From Bacteroidota bacterium (GTDB taxonomy: Bacteria > Bacteroidota > Bacteroidia > B-17B0 > Aurantibacillaceae): a stretch of DNA of 58,284 nt. The notes below the pieces were generated by a model that saw only the letters and a program-made list of their open reading frames with translations, was not told the origin of the DNA and ran no database searches. The stretch lies in NCBI GenBank assembly GCA_013816615.1, contig JACDED010000006.1, positions 9,807 to 68,090 on the forward strand. Reading direction: 5' to 3'. Of the stretch, positions 43,311 to 48,170 are shown piece after piece. Position numbers and translations under genes: made by a program. Within the stretch, counting starts at the first letter, position 1. Every line of letters starts with the position of its first letter.

Positions 43311-46300
43311 ATGAAACGAATAAGCTTATTGCTGATAATAGTAATTTTTTTTAGTTTAAAGTATACCGCACAATCTACTTTTCCTACAAATGGCGCGCCT
43401 TTCAACATACATAGTATTTACGCTTTTACAAATGCAACTATTTATGTTGATTTTGAGACCTTAATAAAAAAAGGCACACTTTTAATACAGGATGGAAGGA
43501 TCATTGCTGCGGCAGAGAAAGTAGATCTTCCCAAAAATGCTATTGTTTACGATCTCAATGGAAAATTTATTTATCCCTCTTTTATTGATCTTTATTCTGA
43601 TTACGGTATTACTGATTCAAGGCCGGCAGCAGGGCATAATCACGGTACCCCGCAAATGGAAAGTAATGTTAAAGGTGCCTACGGTTGGAATCAAGCCATC
43701 CGATCAGATTATGAAGCGTATAAAGTTTTTTTAGTGAATAAAGAAAAGGCAGAAGAGTTAAAAAAATCAGGCTTTAGTTCAGTATTATCTTTTCGTAGAG
43801 ATGGCATTGTAAGAGGAAGTGGTGTTTTTGTAAACTTAACAGGTAAGAATGAGAACGAAAATATTATTTTAGATAAAGCGGCCGGATTTTATTCTTTCTC
43901 GAAAGGTTCTTCAACACAGGATTACCCGAGTTCTTTAACCGGAAGTATTGCTCTGTTGCGTCAAACCTATTACGATGCTTTATGGTATGCGCAAAATCAA
44001 AATAAAAACGAATACAATATTTCGTTAGACGCATTAAATAAAATTAAAGACCTGCCAGCGATTTTTGAAGCCAATGATAAATACAACGCATTACGTGCAG
44101 CAAAAGTTGGTAAAGAATTTAATATAAAGTATATTATTAAAGCCGGAGGTAATGAATATCAACGTATGAACGATATTCAAAACACACAATTAAAATATAT
44201 TGTGCCTTTAAATTTTCCTGTTGCTTATGATGTGGAAGATCCTTTTGATGCAGAAGCGGTTTCACTGGCAGAATTAAAACATTGGGAACTGGCACCAACC
44301 AATCCTGCCGAGTTTGAAAAAAACGCGATCACTTTTTGTTTAACAGCCGCTGATCTTAAAGATAGAAGTCAGTTTCTTTCTAACCTCAGGAAAGCTGTAA
44401 AATATGGGCTTTCAGAGAAAATGGCTTTAAAAGCTTTAACCGTAAATCCTGCCACGTTTATTAATGTACAGGATAAAGTCGGAAGCTTGAAAAAAGATCT
44501 TTTTGCAAATTTTTTCATAAGCAATAAATCTATTTTTGAAAATGATGCGGTGATCATGCAAAACTGGTCAGGTGGCGAACCAACTATTTTTTCAGATATA
44601 AACGCCCTGGATATTCGCGGCAATTACGTGTTGAATACACCGGGTAAAAATTATAAAATAAAGATCTCTGGCGATCTGCCAACGCCACAAGCTAAGATCA
44701 CAATTGATACTGCGAAAAAGAACTTAAGTTATCACTTCACAAACAATCAAATTTCTTTTAGTTTTTCTTATGATTCAACAAAAACTATTCGTGCAAATGG
44801 TAATTATGATGCTATTTCAAAGAGCTTTGAAGGAAAAGGCCAGTTGGCAAATGGTGATTGGTTCGATTTTAAAATGACTTACGAATCTGCTGTTGATACA
44901 ACAACAAAACCAAAACCAGGCGATAAAAAAACAGATCTTAATTTAGGAAAGGTTATTTATCCTTTCAATGCTTTTGGTGAGCCTTTGCCGGATGAAAAAG
45001 GAATTTTTAAGGAACAATGGAATAAATTTAAGAACCGTTATTCTGCCATCTTAATTAAAAATGCTACTGTGTGGACAAACAATGATGACAGCATATTGGT
45101 TGATCATGATGTGTACATTGTAGAGGGAAAAATTGTACGCATTGCAAAAAACATTGATACGCCAAAAATGGCTTTCGCTAAAATTATTGATGCACAAGGT
45201 AAACATCTAACACCGGGTATTATTGATGAGCACAGCCATATTGCTTTAACCGCAGGTGTTAATGAAGGTGCTCAATCAAGCAGTGCCGAAGTAAGAATGG
45301 GCGATGTTTTAAATCCTGAAGATATAAATATTTACCGCCAGCTTTCAGGTGGTGTTACCACTGCGCAATTACTACATGGTTCTGCAAATCCAATTGGTGG
45401 TCAAAGTGTATTGATAAAATTACGTTGGGGCCACACTGCCGAAGATCTTAAATATGAAAAAGCAGATCCGTTCATCAAATTTGCGTTGGGCGAAAACGTA
45501 AAACAAAGTAACTGGGGCGATCATAATTCTATTCGTTTCCCGCAATCACGTATGGGTGTTGAACAGGTATATAAAGATTATTTTACACGCGCCAAAGAAT
45601 ATGATCTGCAATGGCAATCGTTTTCAAAATTAACACCAAAAAACATTGAAAAAAATAAAGTTGGTACTCCCCGTAAAGATCTTGAGCTGGAAGCTTTAGC
45701 GGAGATCATAAATAAAAAACGTTTTATTACTTGTCATAGTTATGTGCAAAGCGAAATTAATATGCTAATGCATATAGCAGATAGTTTTGGATTTAAAGTA
45801 AATACGTTTACGCATATTTTAGAAGGTTATAAAGTAGCAGATAAAATGAAATTACACGGAGTAAACGCTTCTACATTTTCAGATTGGTGGGCATATAAGA
45901 ACGAAGTGTTAGAAGCAATTCCTTATAACGCTGCTATCTTAACAAAGGTAGGGGTTAACACTGCTATAAATAGTGATGATGCCGAGATGGCTCGTCGTTT
46001 GAACCAGGAGGCTGCAAAATCAATTAAGTATGGTGGTTTAACTGAAGTGGAAGCGTTGAAATTAGTAACTCTGAACCCTGCAAAAATGTTACATATTGAT
46101 GATAAAGTAGGAAGTATTAAAGCTGGTAAGGTGGCAGATCTAGTTTTGTGGACAGATAATCCAATGAGTGTTTATGCAAAAGCAGATAAAACAATTATTG
46201 ATGGCCAGATCTATTTTGACAGGGATGAAGATGTTAAATTAAAAGAATATGTGAAAACAGAAAGAGCAAGAATAATTGCAAAATTATTATTGGAAAAACA

Positions 46301-46400
46301 AAAAGGTGGTAAGGTTGAAAAACTGAAATTAAAGCATGAACGTTTGTATCATTGCAATACAATTGAAGGCGTGGATGAAGAATTAACAGGACATAGATAA
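43311..46400 (+). CDS. Exported amidohydrolase with two amidohydrolase-like halves
   Basis: Signal peptide; second half has GKHLTPGIIDEHSHIAL (HxH), FITCHSY, FTHILEGYK, TAINSDDAEMARRL; first half retains GKFIYPSFIDLYSDYG without HxH. Confidence 0.85.
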   Translation: MKRISLLLIIVIFFSLKYTAQSTFPTNGAPFNIHSIYAFTNATIYVDFETLIKKGTLLIQDGRIIAAAEKVDLPKNAIVYDLNGKFIYPSFIDLYSDYGITDSRPAAGHNHGTPQMESNVKGAYGWNQAIRSDYEAYKVFLVNKEKAEELKKSGFSSVLSFRRDGIVRGSGVFVNLTGKNENENIILDKAAGFYSFSKGSSTQDYPSSLTGSIALLRQTYYDALWYAQNQNKNEYNISLDALNKIKDLPAIFEANDKYNALRAAKVGKEFNIKYIIKAGGNEYQRMNDIQNTQLKYIVPLNFPVAYDVEDPFDAEAVSLAELKHWELAPTNPAEFEKNAITFCLTAADLKDRSQFLSNLRKAVKYGLSEKMALKALTVNPATFINVQDKVGSLKKDLFANFFISNKSIFENDAVIMQNWSGGEPTIFSDINALDIRGNYVLNTPGKNYKIKISGDLPTPQAKITIDTAKKNLSYHFTNNQISFSFSYDSTKTIRANGNYDAISKSFEGKGQLANGDWFDFKMTYESAVDTTTKPKPGDKKTDLNLGKVIYPFNAFGEPLPDEKGIFKEQWNKFKNRYSAILIKNATVWTNNDDSILVDHDVYIVEGKIVRIAKNIDTPKMAFAKIIDAQGKHLTPGIIDEHSHIALTAGVNEGAQSSSAEVRMGDVLNPEDINIYRQLSGGVTTAQLLHGSANPIGGQSVLIKLRWGHTAEDLKYEKADPFIKFALGENVKQSNWGDHNSIRFPQSRMGVEQVYKDYFTRAKEYDLQWQSFSKLTPKNIEKNKVGTPRKDLELEALAEIINKKRFITCHSYVQSEINMLMHIADSFGFKVNTFTHILEGYKVADKMKLHGVNASTFSDWWAYKNEVLEAIPYNAAILTKVGVNTAINSDDAEMARRLNQEAAKSIKYGGLTEVEALKLVTLNPAKMLHIDDKVGSIKAGKVADLVLWTDNPMSVYAKADKTIIDGQIYFDRDEDVKLKEYVKTERARIIAKLLLEKQKGGKVEKLKLKHERLYHCNTIEGVDEELTGHR

Positions 46401-46411
46401 ATATACAGTCC

Positions 46412-46445
46412 ATTCCCCCTTTGACAAAAGGGGGTTAGGGGGATT
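46412..46445. repeat. Left terminal inverted repeat with nested hairpin CCCCCTTT-GACA-AAAGGGGG
   Basis: Read directly; reverse complement matches 46845-46876 apart from the hairpin-loop region. Confidence 0.92.
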
Positions 46446-46447
46446 AA

Positions 46448-46834
46448 ATGCAAACAAAAAGTAACTATAATAAAAACTTAAAGCAGTTGGCCAGGGAGAA
46501 ACGCAACGATTCAACCTTTGGTGAAGTTTTATTGTGGAAAAACTTGTTAAGTAGATCAAAGTTAGGTTTTCAGTTTAATAGACAGTTTCCGTTCGAAAAT
46601 TATATTGTCGATTTTATTTGTAGAAAATTAAGATTGGTTATAGAAGTGGATGGTTATTCTCATAATTTTAAATATGTGGAAGATACAGCAAGAGATGAGA
46701 TGTTGAATAGTTTTGGTTATGAGGTTGTAAGAGTTTCAGAGCACGATGTAAAATATAATTTTGAAAACGTAACAAGAGTAGTTGTTGCGAAAGTTGACGA
46801 ATTAAAATTAAAATATTCACATGATAAAATTTAA
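46448..46834 (+). CDS. DUF559 domain protein (PD-(D/E)XK-like endonuclease)
   Basis: TFGEVLLWKNLLSRSKLGFQFNRQFPFENYIVDFICRKLRLVIEVDGYSHNF...RDEMLNSFGYEVVRVSEHDV is the full DUF559 signature. Confidence 0.92.
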   Translation: MQTKSNYNKNLKQLAREKRNDSTFGEVLLWKNLLSRSKLGFQFNRQFPFENYIVDFICRKLRLVIEVDGYSHNFKYVEDTARDEMLNSFGYEVVRVSEHDVKYNFENVTRVVVAKVDELKLKYSHDKI

Positions 46835-48170
46835 AGATAGAATCAATCCCCCTAACCCCCTTCTTCAAGGGGGAATCTCAGTATATTTTAAAATAGCGAT
46901 ACTTCTTTCTATTTTAGGATTTGGTAATGCAAATGCCCAAAAAACATACACGCATATTGCTTTAATAAATGCGACTGCACATATAGGTAACGGAAAAATT
47001 ATTGAGAACAGTATTGTTGTGATCAATAAAAATAAATTAGAAATGGTAAACAGCATTACAGGTATTCGCTTAAATCCAAGCGCGTATGACACAGTAATAG
47101 ATCTTTCAGGAAAACATATTTACCCGGGCCTTATCAATACAAATAATATTTTAGGCTTGCACGATGCTGAGGCGGTAAGAGCTACGCGCGATTTTTCGGA
47201 AGTAGGAAATATTAACCCGCATATTAGAACGCTGATAGCTTACAATACAGATAACATTATTACACCAACTGTAAAAACTAACGGTATTTTATATACGCAA
47301 GCCACCCCGCGTGATGGTTTGATCAGTGGTTCATCTTCTATTATGGCGTTGGAAGGTTGGAACTGGGAAGATGCAGTGCTTAAGGCAGACGATGGAATTC
47401 ATCTTAGTTTTCCAAAAGCTATTACCCGCAAATTTACTGAAGAAGAAGGTTTATCGGTCGCATCAAATAAAAATTATAATACAGAGATAAATTATCTGAA
47501 TAAATTTTTTGATGATGCGCAGGCTTATTGTTTAACTACAAATGCTGCCGAGAAAAACATCCGTTTTGAAGCTATGCGTGGTGTTTTTAACGGTACAGCT
47601 AACTTATACCTTCATGCCGAAAAAGCCAAAGACATAATGAGCGTGATCAATTTTGTGAAAAAATATAACATCAAAAAACCTGTAATTGTGGGTGGAAAAG
47701 AGTCTTATAAGATCACTGCTGCATTAAAGAAAAATAATATTCCGGTGATGTTAAATCGTGTAAATGATCTGCCTGATAATGCAGATGATGGGGTTGATAT
47801 GGTTTTTAGTACACCTTCTTTGTTGCAAAAAGACAGTGTTTTATTTTGTTTGCAGTTAGAAGGTGATATGGAAGCTGCTCAAAGCAGAAACCTACCCTTT
47901 AACGCAGGCATGGCTGTTGCTTATGGCTTAACAAAAGAGGAAGCTTTGGCTAGCATTACATCAAATGCTGCAAAAATTTTGGGAGTAGAAAAAGAAATCG
48001 GAACTTTGGAAGAAGGAAAATTAGCTTCATTAGTGGTGAGCGATGGAGATATTTTAGATATGAAAACAAACAACATTATTTTGGCTTACATTGCCGGAAA
48101 AAATATTGGTCTCACAAATAAACAAACAGAATTGTATTTAAAATACAAAACTAAATATGGTATAAAATAA
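46821..48170 (+). CDS. Exported amidohydrolase-like protein, metal-binding motif degenerate
   Basis: Signal-peptide-like FKIAILLSILGFGNANAQ after an element-encoded 21-22 aa N-terminal extension; amidohydrolase-like C-terminus LTKEEALASITSNAAKILGVEKEIGTLEEGKLASLVV; HxH site replaced by GLINTNNILGL. Confidence 0.8.
   Translation: MIKFKDRINPPNPLLQGGISVYFKIAILLSILGFGNANAQKTYTHIALINATAHIGNGKIIENSIVVINKNKLEMVNSITGIRLNPSAYDTVIDLSGKHIYPGLINTNNILGLHDAEAVRATRDFSEVGNINPHIRTLIAYNTDNIITPTVKTNGILYTQATPRDGLISGSSSIMALEGWNWEDAVLKADDGIHLSFPKAITRKFTEEEGLSVASNKNYNTEINYLNKFFDDAQAYCLTTNAAEKNIRFEAMRGVFNGTANLYLHAEKAKDIMSVINFVKKYNIKKPVIVGGKESYKITAALKKNNIPVMLNRVNDLPDNADDGVDMVFSTPSLLQKDSVLFCLQLEGDMEAAQSRNLPFNAGMAVAYGLTKEEALASITSNAAKILGVEKEIGTLEEGKLASLVVSDGDILDMKTNNIILAYIAGKNIGLTNKQTELYLKYKTKYGIK
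46845..46876. repeat. Right terminal inverted repeat with nested hairpin CCCCCTT-CTTC-AAGGGGG
   Basis: Read directly; translated as INPPNPLLQGGI in the N-terminal extension of the downstream ORF. Confidence 0.92.

Follow-up and report, generated by a model that had tools for sequence, protein, structure and literature searches.

A compact, probably homing mobile element pairs a DUF559 nuclease gene with inverted triplex-type repeats

A 465-base unit in a Bacteroidota genome, consisting of a DUF559 open reading frame (ORF) between hairpin-tipped inverted repeats of 34 and 32 bp, raises the question of what kind of unit it is, how it is copied and what its ends do. The unit lies in a 58,284-bp stretch of DNA, analysed as a whole and here termed the window. 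We report that it is probably a compact selfish mobile element, in which a DUF559 endonuclease gene is bounded by inverted triplex motifs and copied by homing. A sequence-only reading of the window had described a DUF559 nuclease packaged between hairpin-tipped inverted repeats, and the sequence and coordinates are as it described. The site comprises the following features:

43311..46400, plus strand: upstream amidohydrolase gene, the neighbour that is kept in filled and empty genomes and defines the site
46412..46445, plus strand: left end, a triplex motif made up of S5 (46415-46422, CCCCCTTT), a loop (46423-46426), S3 (46427-46434, AAAGGGGG), X (46435-46437, TTA) and Q (46438-46445, GGGGGATT)
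46448..46834, plus strand: DUF559 nuclease ORF of 128 amino acids, characterized by its Pfam match (1.3e-29), conserved residues, PDB profile hits, an AlphaFold model and dN/dS
46821..48170, plus strand: downstream amidohydrolase gene, whose start codon falls within the element and whose N-terminal extension includes the translated right end
46845..46876, minus strand: right end, an inverted triplex motif made up of S5 (46867-46873), a loop (46863-46866), S3 (46856-46862), X (46853-46855) and Q (46845-46852)
46877..46944, plus strand: right flank, a signal-peptide region that clusters by filled or empty state and not by species, forming a co-conversion-like tract

Both ends follow the layout S5-loop-S3-TTA-Q, in which Q mirrors S3, G being set against G and either A or T against A; the conserved TTAGGGGGATT holds this third strand, mirror-symmetric to the stem. 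At the left end, Q points inward and the hairpin outward. The ends had been called near-perfect inverted copies with nested hairpins, and both descriptions hold: positions 46428-46445 and 46845-46862 form a core of 18 nt of perfect inverted complementarity, and the hairpins CCCCCTTT-GACA-AAAGGGGG (left) and CCCCCTT-CTTC-AAGGGGG (right) fold as DNA at -8.6 and -7.4 kcal/mol, respectively. The full motif, hairpin plus third strand, occurs at exactly two places in the window, which are the two element ends, each fitting the triplex motif with 0 Hoogsteen mismatches; this is far beyond chance, as it was found in none of five shuffles of the window sequence. The nuclease stop codon lies 10 nt ahead of the right repeat, as had been claimed, and the ATG lies 2 nt past the left repeat rather than the 3 nt given earlier. 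Translation also runs through the right repeat: the downstream gene starts at 46821, inside the element, and carries the repeat in its N terminus as NPPNPLLQGGI, and in empty alleles this gene starts at a separate ATG-AAA.

Across 87 genomes of the window's family, the ends that flank DUF559 genes share one architecture in many sequences: a pyrimidine S5, a loop, a purine S3, a short X, which may be TTA, CA or a second mini-hairpin, and Q. Q is no copy of S3 but S3 in reverse order, in which each G is kept and each A is either kept or replaced by T; this is the code of the reverse-Hoogsteen third strand of a purine-motif triplex. At two loci with differing ends, each Q follows its own stem (AAGAGGGG with GGGGTGTT and GGAGGGG with GGGGTGG at L126; AAGGAGG with GGAGGAT and AAGAGGG with GGGAGAT at L127). 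When hairpins near DUF559 genes were taken without requiring the code and Q was read at a fixed offset of 3, Q agreed with the mirror of S3 at 300 positions, against 246 ± 8 for permuted Q (0 of 5000 permutations). A direct-copy reading of Q gave no excess over permutation, and a Watson–Crick reading scored lowest of the models. The selection on end structure that the sequence-only reading had suggested is thereby supported and sharpened, as Q covaries with the stem by the triplex code across loci. In the same clade as the window genome, DUF559 elements at L111 (G033:C44) and L100 (G015:C13) have a second mini-hairpin as X; their third-strand code is the same, and they form an end type of their own.

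By layout and code, the window ends belong to the published class of intrastrand-triplex (PIT/TM) repeats (Hoyne, Viari and Maher 2000; Holder et al. 2015, PMC4666352). The PIT/TM_ECO repeats share the S5-loop-S3-X-Q arrangement and the purine-motif code with the window ends, as well as a TTA second loop, solo and inverted-pair copies, and presence or absence between strains. They are nevertheless a different sequence family within the class: the window ends (CCCCCTTT/AAAGGGGG/GGGGGATT) do not match the TM_ECO consensus CCCTCNCCC...GGGNGAGGG, stem and third strand being CCCCCTTT/GGGGGATT in the window and CCCTCNCCC/GGGNGAGGG in PIT/TM_ECO. TM_ECO was counted at 3610 copies in 262 proteobacterial genomes, with TTA or CCG as the second loop and some copies in inverted pairs; its triplex formed in vitro (CD/NMR) and was not seen by in vivo footprinting (PMC4666352). 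Holder et al. found no mobility activity near TM_ECO motifs (PMC4666352), and PIT/TM_ECO repeats have been described as orphans without a mobility gene nearby, whereas in the window such motifs are the two ends of a nuclease-bearing element.

The pairing of DUF559 with this motif extends across phyla. We sampled 173 DUF559 domains, of which 91 belong to the window's family and 82 came from a scan of GTDB species genomes that comprised 80 loci. A triplex motif was present in at least one flank of 148 of the 173 and in both flanks of 107, compared with 27 of 314 windows 650–900 bp away and 1 of 173 shuffled flanks, statistics that are not fully independent because the sampled sequences are related. 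Counts were 380 motifs in 100 kb of DUF559 flanks versus 1 in 105 kb of control amidohydrolase loci, and an independent inverted-repeat score reached at least 30 at 60% of 92 loci versus 0 of 116 controls and 0 of 276 shuffles. All of the sampled DUF559 domains from outside Bacteroidota were motif-flanked (25 of 25; Cyanobacteria, Chloroflexota, Alpha- and Gammaproteobacteria, Planctomycetota, Patescibacteria and others), and no motif was detectable at 19 of 57 sampled Bacteroidota DUF559 loci outside the window's family. Free-standing and in-frame elements are not alike in how their ends are oriented with respect to the gene. Related nucleases have related motif types only where the pair shares at least 60% identity, and we therefore claim no clade-specific recognition; deep co-evolution of nuclease clade and end type was rejected, with no correlation found (r = 0.036, 212 of 2000 permutations). 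As for vehicles, homologues are encoded in few phage records (3) and scattered plasmid records (31). The openly licensed literature yielded no paper linking DUF559 with triplex repeats or inverted repeats.

Among 71 genomes of the family around G092 (Methylomonas locus L157), TM_ECO-like motifs occurred in 18 of 24 DUF559 carriers versus 16 of 47 others (P = 0.002), a co-occurrence that we regard only as supporting because the element ends themselves contribute and some DUF559-free genomes are motif-rich. In one genome of this family, G109, TM_ECO-like motifs number 64 and are near-identical, and no DUF559 gene was detected; either the driver was lost or another enzyme moves them.

Escherichia coli offers a second view of the same pairing. 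Of the 23 motifs published for E. coli, TM_ECO no. 9 is located between fabI and ycjD, the latter being annotated as a DUF559 gene and the DUF559 gene of E. coli; the chance expectation for this 0.8-kb interval is about 0.004 motifs (23 × 789 / 4.64 Mb). The last codons of ycjD, moreover, run into a degenerate triplex motif. Paired ends without a gene are present or absent between E. coli strains, and in one variant a deletion between two hairpins leaves a single perfect hairpin; no target-site duplication was definable at two E. coli units. TM pairs 12+13 and 1+2 (L217 and L218) share further ends, GTTTTCT on the left and GACYGAYCGAG on the right, and the E. coli unit is therefore longer than the published motif. 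GACCGAG, similar to the right end of the TM pairs, also occurs 3′ of ycjD. Directly 5′ of ycjD, in the sapF–ycjD gap of E. coli MG1655 (L136), is a long perfect inverted repeat, CACCTCATTCTGACAAAAGATTAAATCTTGTCAGAATGAGGTG, which is not a triplex motif and is possibly an operator or attenuator.

The protein encoded between the window ends matches DUF559 (PF04480) at 1.3e-29 and 102.7 bits, against a curated cut-off of 20.6, and its only Pfam matches are DUF559 and MTES_1575. Residues E26, D55, E66, D68, H72 and D79 are invariant in 39 homologues and outline a Vsr/EDxHD-like PD-(D/E)XK core, in which E26, D55, D68, H72 and D79 occur in the same order as E25/D51/H64/H69/D97, the Vsr residues assigned in VsrA (PMC12907096). 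PDB profile matches include the DUF559 structure 3hrl (7.3e-33) and the homing endonuclease I-Bth0305I (3r3p, 7.5e-6); the AlphaFold model has a pLDDT of 88, and dN/dS of 0.10–0.15 among three intact copies indicates purifying selection. By these features it is a homing-endonuclease-like protein of the EDxHD/Vsr type, predicted to cut DNA, and an intein-associated DUF559 gene has already been assigned to EDxHD in one paper (PMC9403480). The element resembles the EDxHD homing endonucleases and free-standing homing endonuclease genes in its homologous nuclease core (7.5e-6 to I-Bth0305I), its cycle of empty, filled and decayed alleles and its co-conversion-like flanks, described below. It differs from them in having no intron or intein, in being a single 128-residue domain without the extended DNA-binding region of I-Bth0305I, and in being bounded by structured inverted repeats and tolerated in proteins without splicing.

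The amidohydrolase genes that neighbour the element are conserved throughout the genus. In a nine-species clade, the site holds an intact element in three species (the window genome G000, G033 and G011) and a decayed or gutted one in two (G028, with stop codons; G025, with both ends kept and the nuclease gone), and is cleanly empty in four; the other junctions read at the site, including those of outgroups, have no repeat. The sequence-only reading had proposed looking for empty sites and target-site duplications: the former exist, and neither a duplication nor an exact insertion point is definable between the diverged alleles at this site. It had also allowed for an ORF that was ancestral here and vertically inherited. 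Synteny speaks otherwise, as the outgroups are empty and the states within the clade are out of step with the species tree, in which G000 groups with G014, G025 with G034, and G033 with G005 and G015, all of these partners being empty.

The sequence to the right of the element behaves in the same manner. Its first 68 nt are similar among intact alleles (0.74 for G033–G011, 0.66 for G000–G033) and alike among empty ones, with G033 and its close relative G005 at only 0.36; beyond about 70 nt from the element, the two genes flanking it in G033 are closest to those of G005 (0.86–0.99). In the G033–G011 comparison, the nuclease shows fewer synonymous differences (0.377) than the host gene (0.596; P = 6e-4), and fourfold sites agree (6 of 24 versus 73 of 137), with the caveat that third-position GC is lower in the two nucleases (0.17–0.18) than in the hosts (0.27–0.31). 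This pattern requires allele exchange over a short tract around the element, either as a gain in G033 or as a loss in G005 and G015. Filled, empty and decayed alleles thus coexist at one site, and the element with about 70 bp of flank sorts by filled or empty state and not by the species tree. Homing with co-conversion would produce this outcome, and co-conversion is a mark of homing (PMC3943268).

Copies of the ends are also found away from the element. The proposed search for them yielded eight in the window genome, of which two are the element and six are solo, and others in eight further congeners, with 0 matches to a reversed control pattern; the repeat pair is therefore not peculiar to this locus. 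One solo copy sits in frame in the linker of a LytTR-type response regulator and is shared or missing among relatives, and no target-site duplication was definable at two solo-repeat sites. Window-type motifs occur in only 9 of 40 genus genomes, namely the element-holding clade and G024, which has its own related nuclease, and 4 of 4 genomes with an intact cognate nuclease have them. Scattered solo copies and site polymorphism together indicate that the element is mobile.

Homing is the best-supported copying route, because the Vsr-like nuclease, dN/dS, the cycle of filled and empty alleles and the co-conversion-like flanks point to it together. Most likely, the target of the nuclease would be the empty allele, or a site similar to the element's own ends, and the host's repair of the double-strand break would then fill the cut with a copy of the element plus a short stretch of flank, as for free-standing homing endonuclease genes. 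The triplex or hairpin ends would be the cis-acting part, single-strand structures that form in replication or repair and are recognised or tolerated as boundaries; their role could be to mark the boundaries, to block the synthesis step of repair or to serve as a recognition site for the nuclease. Ends copied without the gene would yield the solo and paired repeats of host genomes, nonautonomous in the manner of MITEs or REPs.

Transposition like that of REP/RAYT or IS200/IS605, in which the nuclease would recognise folded single-stranded DNA ends, excise or copy the element and paste it elsewhere, is the strongest competing account, and we consider it unlikely. Much of the anatomy accords with it: most copies have structured terminal ends, nonautonomous solo and paired copies exist, end type matches the resident nuclease in close relatives, and the paired E. 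coli motifs are present or absent between strains. REP/BIME repeats with their RAYT (TnpA-REP) are similar to the element in combining short palindromic repeats and an asymmetric tag, with inverted pairs flanking a nuclease gene, and in having nonautonomous copies too. However, the nuclease of the element is of the PD-(D/E)XK Vsr type, in contrast to the HUH enzyme of RAYT, and has no HUH (Y1) or DDE transposase match by Pfam, PDB profile or conserved residues; its tag is a putative triplex third strand in place of the GTAG/CGTC of REP; and the local exchange of alleles, at a site that stays fixed, is more in keeping with homing than with jumping.

In relatives, the nuclease and its ends are also found in frame within leucyl-tRNA synthetase (LeuRS), ahead of the editing domain, and within methionine synthase (MetH) and urocanase, these hosts being recognised by sequence. 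The LeuRS loop measures 27–37 amino acids when empty versus 172–186 when filled, and the ends are translated as linkers such as LIPNPSPKEKG. In other phyla, Pfam places DUF559 within HsdM, HsdR, Eco57I/MmeI methylases and S-adenosylhomocysteine hydrolase (SahH). Pfam found no intein domains in 10 host ORFs, and the in-frame copies contain only the translated ends and DUF559, so that they do not qualify as inteins. Since the ends can be read in frame in many lineages, essential enzymes can accommodate the element as an additional loop domain. Rickettsia palindromic elements (RPEs) are likewise palindromic DNA that is carried in frame in conserved genes and translated; to our knowledge they have no nuclease gene, whereas window-type elements have DUF559 or resemble the ends of DUF559-bearing elements.

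Two LeuRS loci (L293 and L304, in G027 and G021) contain other in-frame palindromes, CCCTCACGCGCGCC-TAC-GGCGCGCGTGAGGG and CACCCTTCGACTCCGCTCAGGGTG; since the loop takes DUF559 elements as well as these, translated palindromic repeats seem to have a hot spot there. In G076:C294 (L016 and L080), a single LeuRS reading frame has two DUF559 elements of different end types. Five Pedobacter loci (L143, L138, L139, L149 and L159) encode ORFs of about 400 amino acids with DUF559 at the N terminus, followed at L143 by a histidine-biosynthesis (His_biosynth) domain; these may be domesticated fusions.

The resemblance of DUF559 to Vsr also admits a resident repair gene, acting in Vsr-like very-short-patch repair near palindromes that are independent of it. 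The Caulobacter DUF559 protein VsrA, a proposed mismatch-repair endonuclease (PMC12907096), shares fold, active-site residues and the DUF559 domain with the window nuclease, and was proposed as a stable repair gene tied to cytosine methylation, with no terminal repeats reported in that work; the apparently fixed Pedobacter histidine-biosynthesis fusion, with several of the loci there lacking motifs, would suit such a gene as well. We nonetheless judge it improbable, as it predicts none of the patchy, decaying, gutted and empty alleles or the in-frame insertions in unrelated enzymes, and the motif association is hundreds-fold over control loci, across phyla. That the ends are only transcription terminators or mRNA-stability hairpins around a small operon gene, as GC-rich hairpins between co-directional genes could suggest, is scarcely credible given the third-strand covariation, the ends inside ORFs, the translation of the right end in the downstream gene and the lack of promoter or terminator activity of the E. 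coli motifs (PMC4666352).

The reading of the window unit as a homing element goes beyond the earlier one in three respects: its ends are of the published triplex-repeat class, in-frame insertion into enzymes is common, and its nuclease is homing-endonuclease-like. A wider proposal, which we offer tentatively, is that bacterial intrastrand-triplex repeats might be the ends and dead remnants of multi-phylum mobile elements, in which DUF559 would read the triplex, or its single-stranded precursor, as a boundary, and which would be built for read-through translation and so live inside essential enzymes.

Triplex-type repeats number in the thousands in bacterial genomes and previously had no known origin, driver or function, and DUF559 proteins, including E. 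coli YcjD, had no clear function. The present findings join these two orphans into one testable system with DUF559 as the candidate driver, a system from which the gene that moves a given repeat can be predicted and in which repeat variation between strains becomes a problem of homing or transposition. They also show how selfish DNA can insert an entire domain into an essential enzyme, leucyl-tRNA synthetase for example, with no need of splicing.
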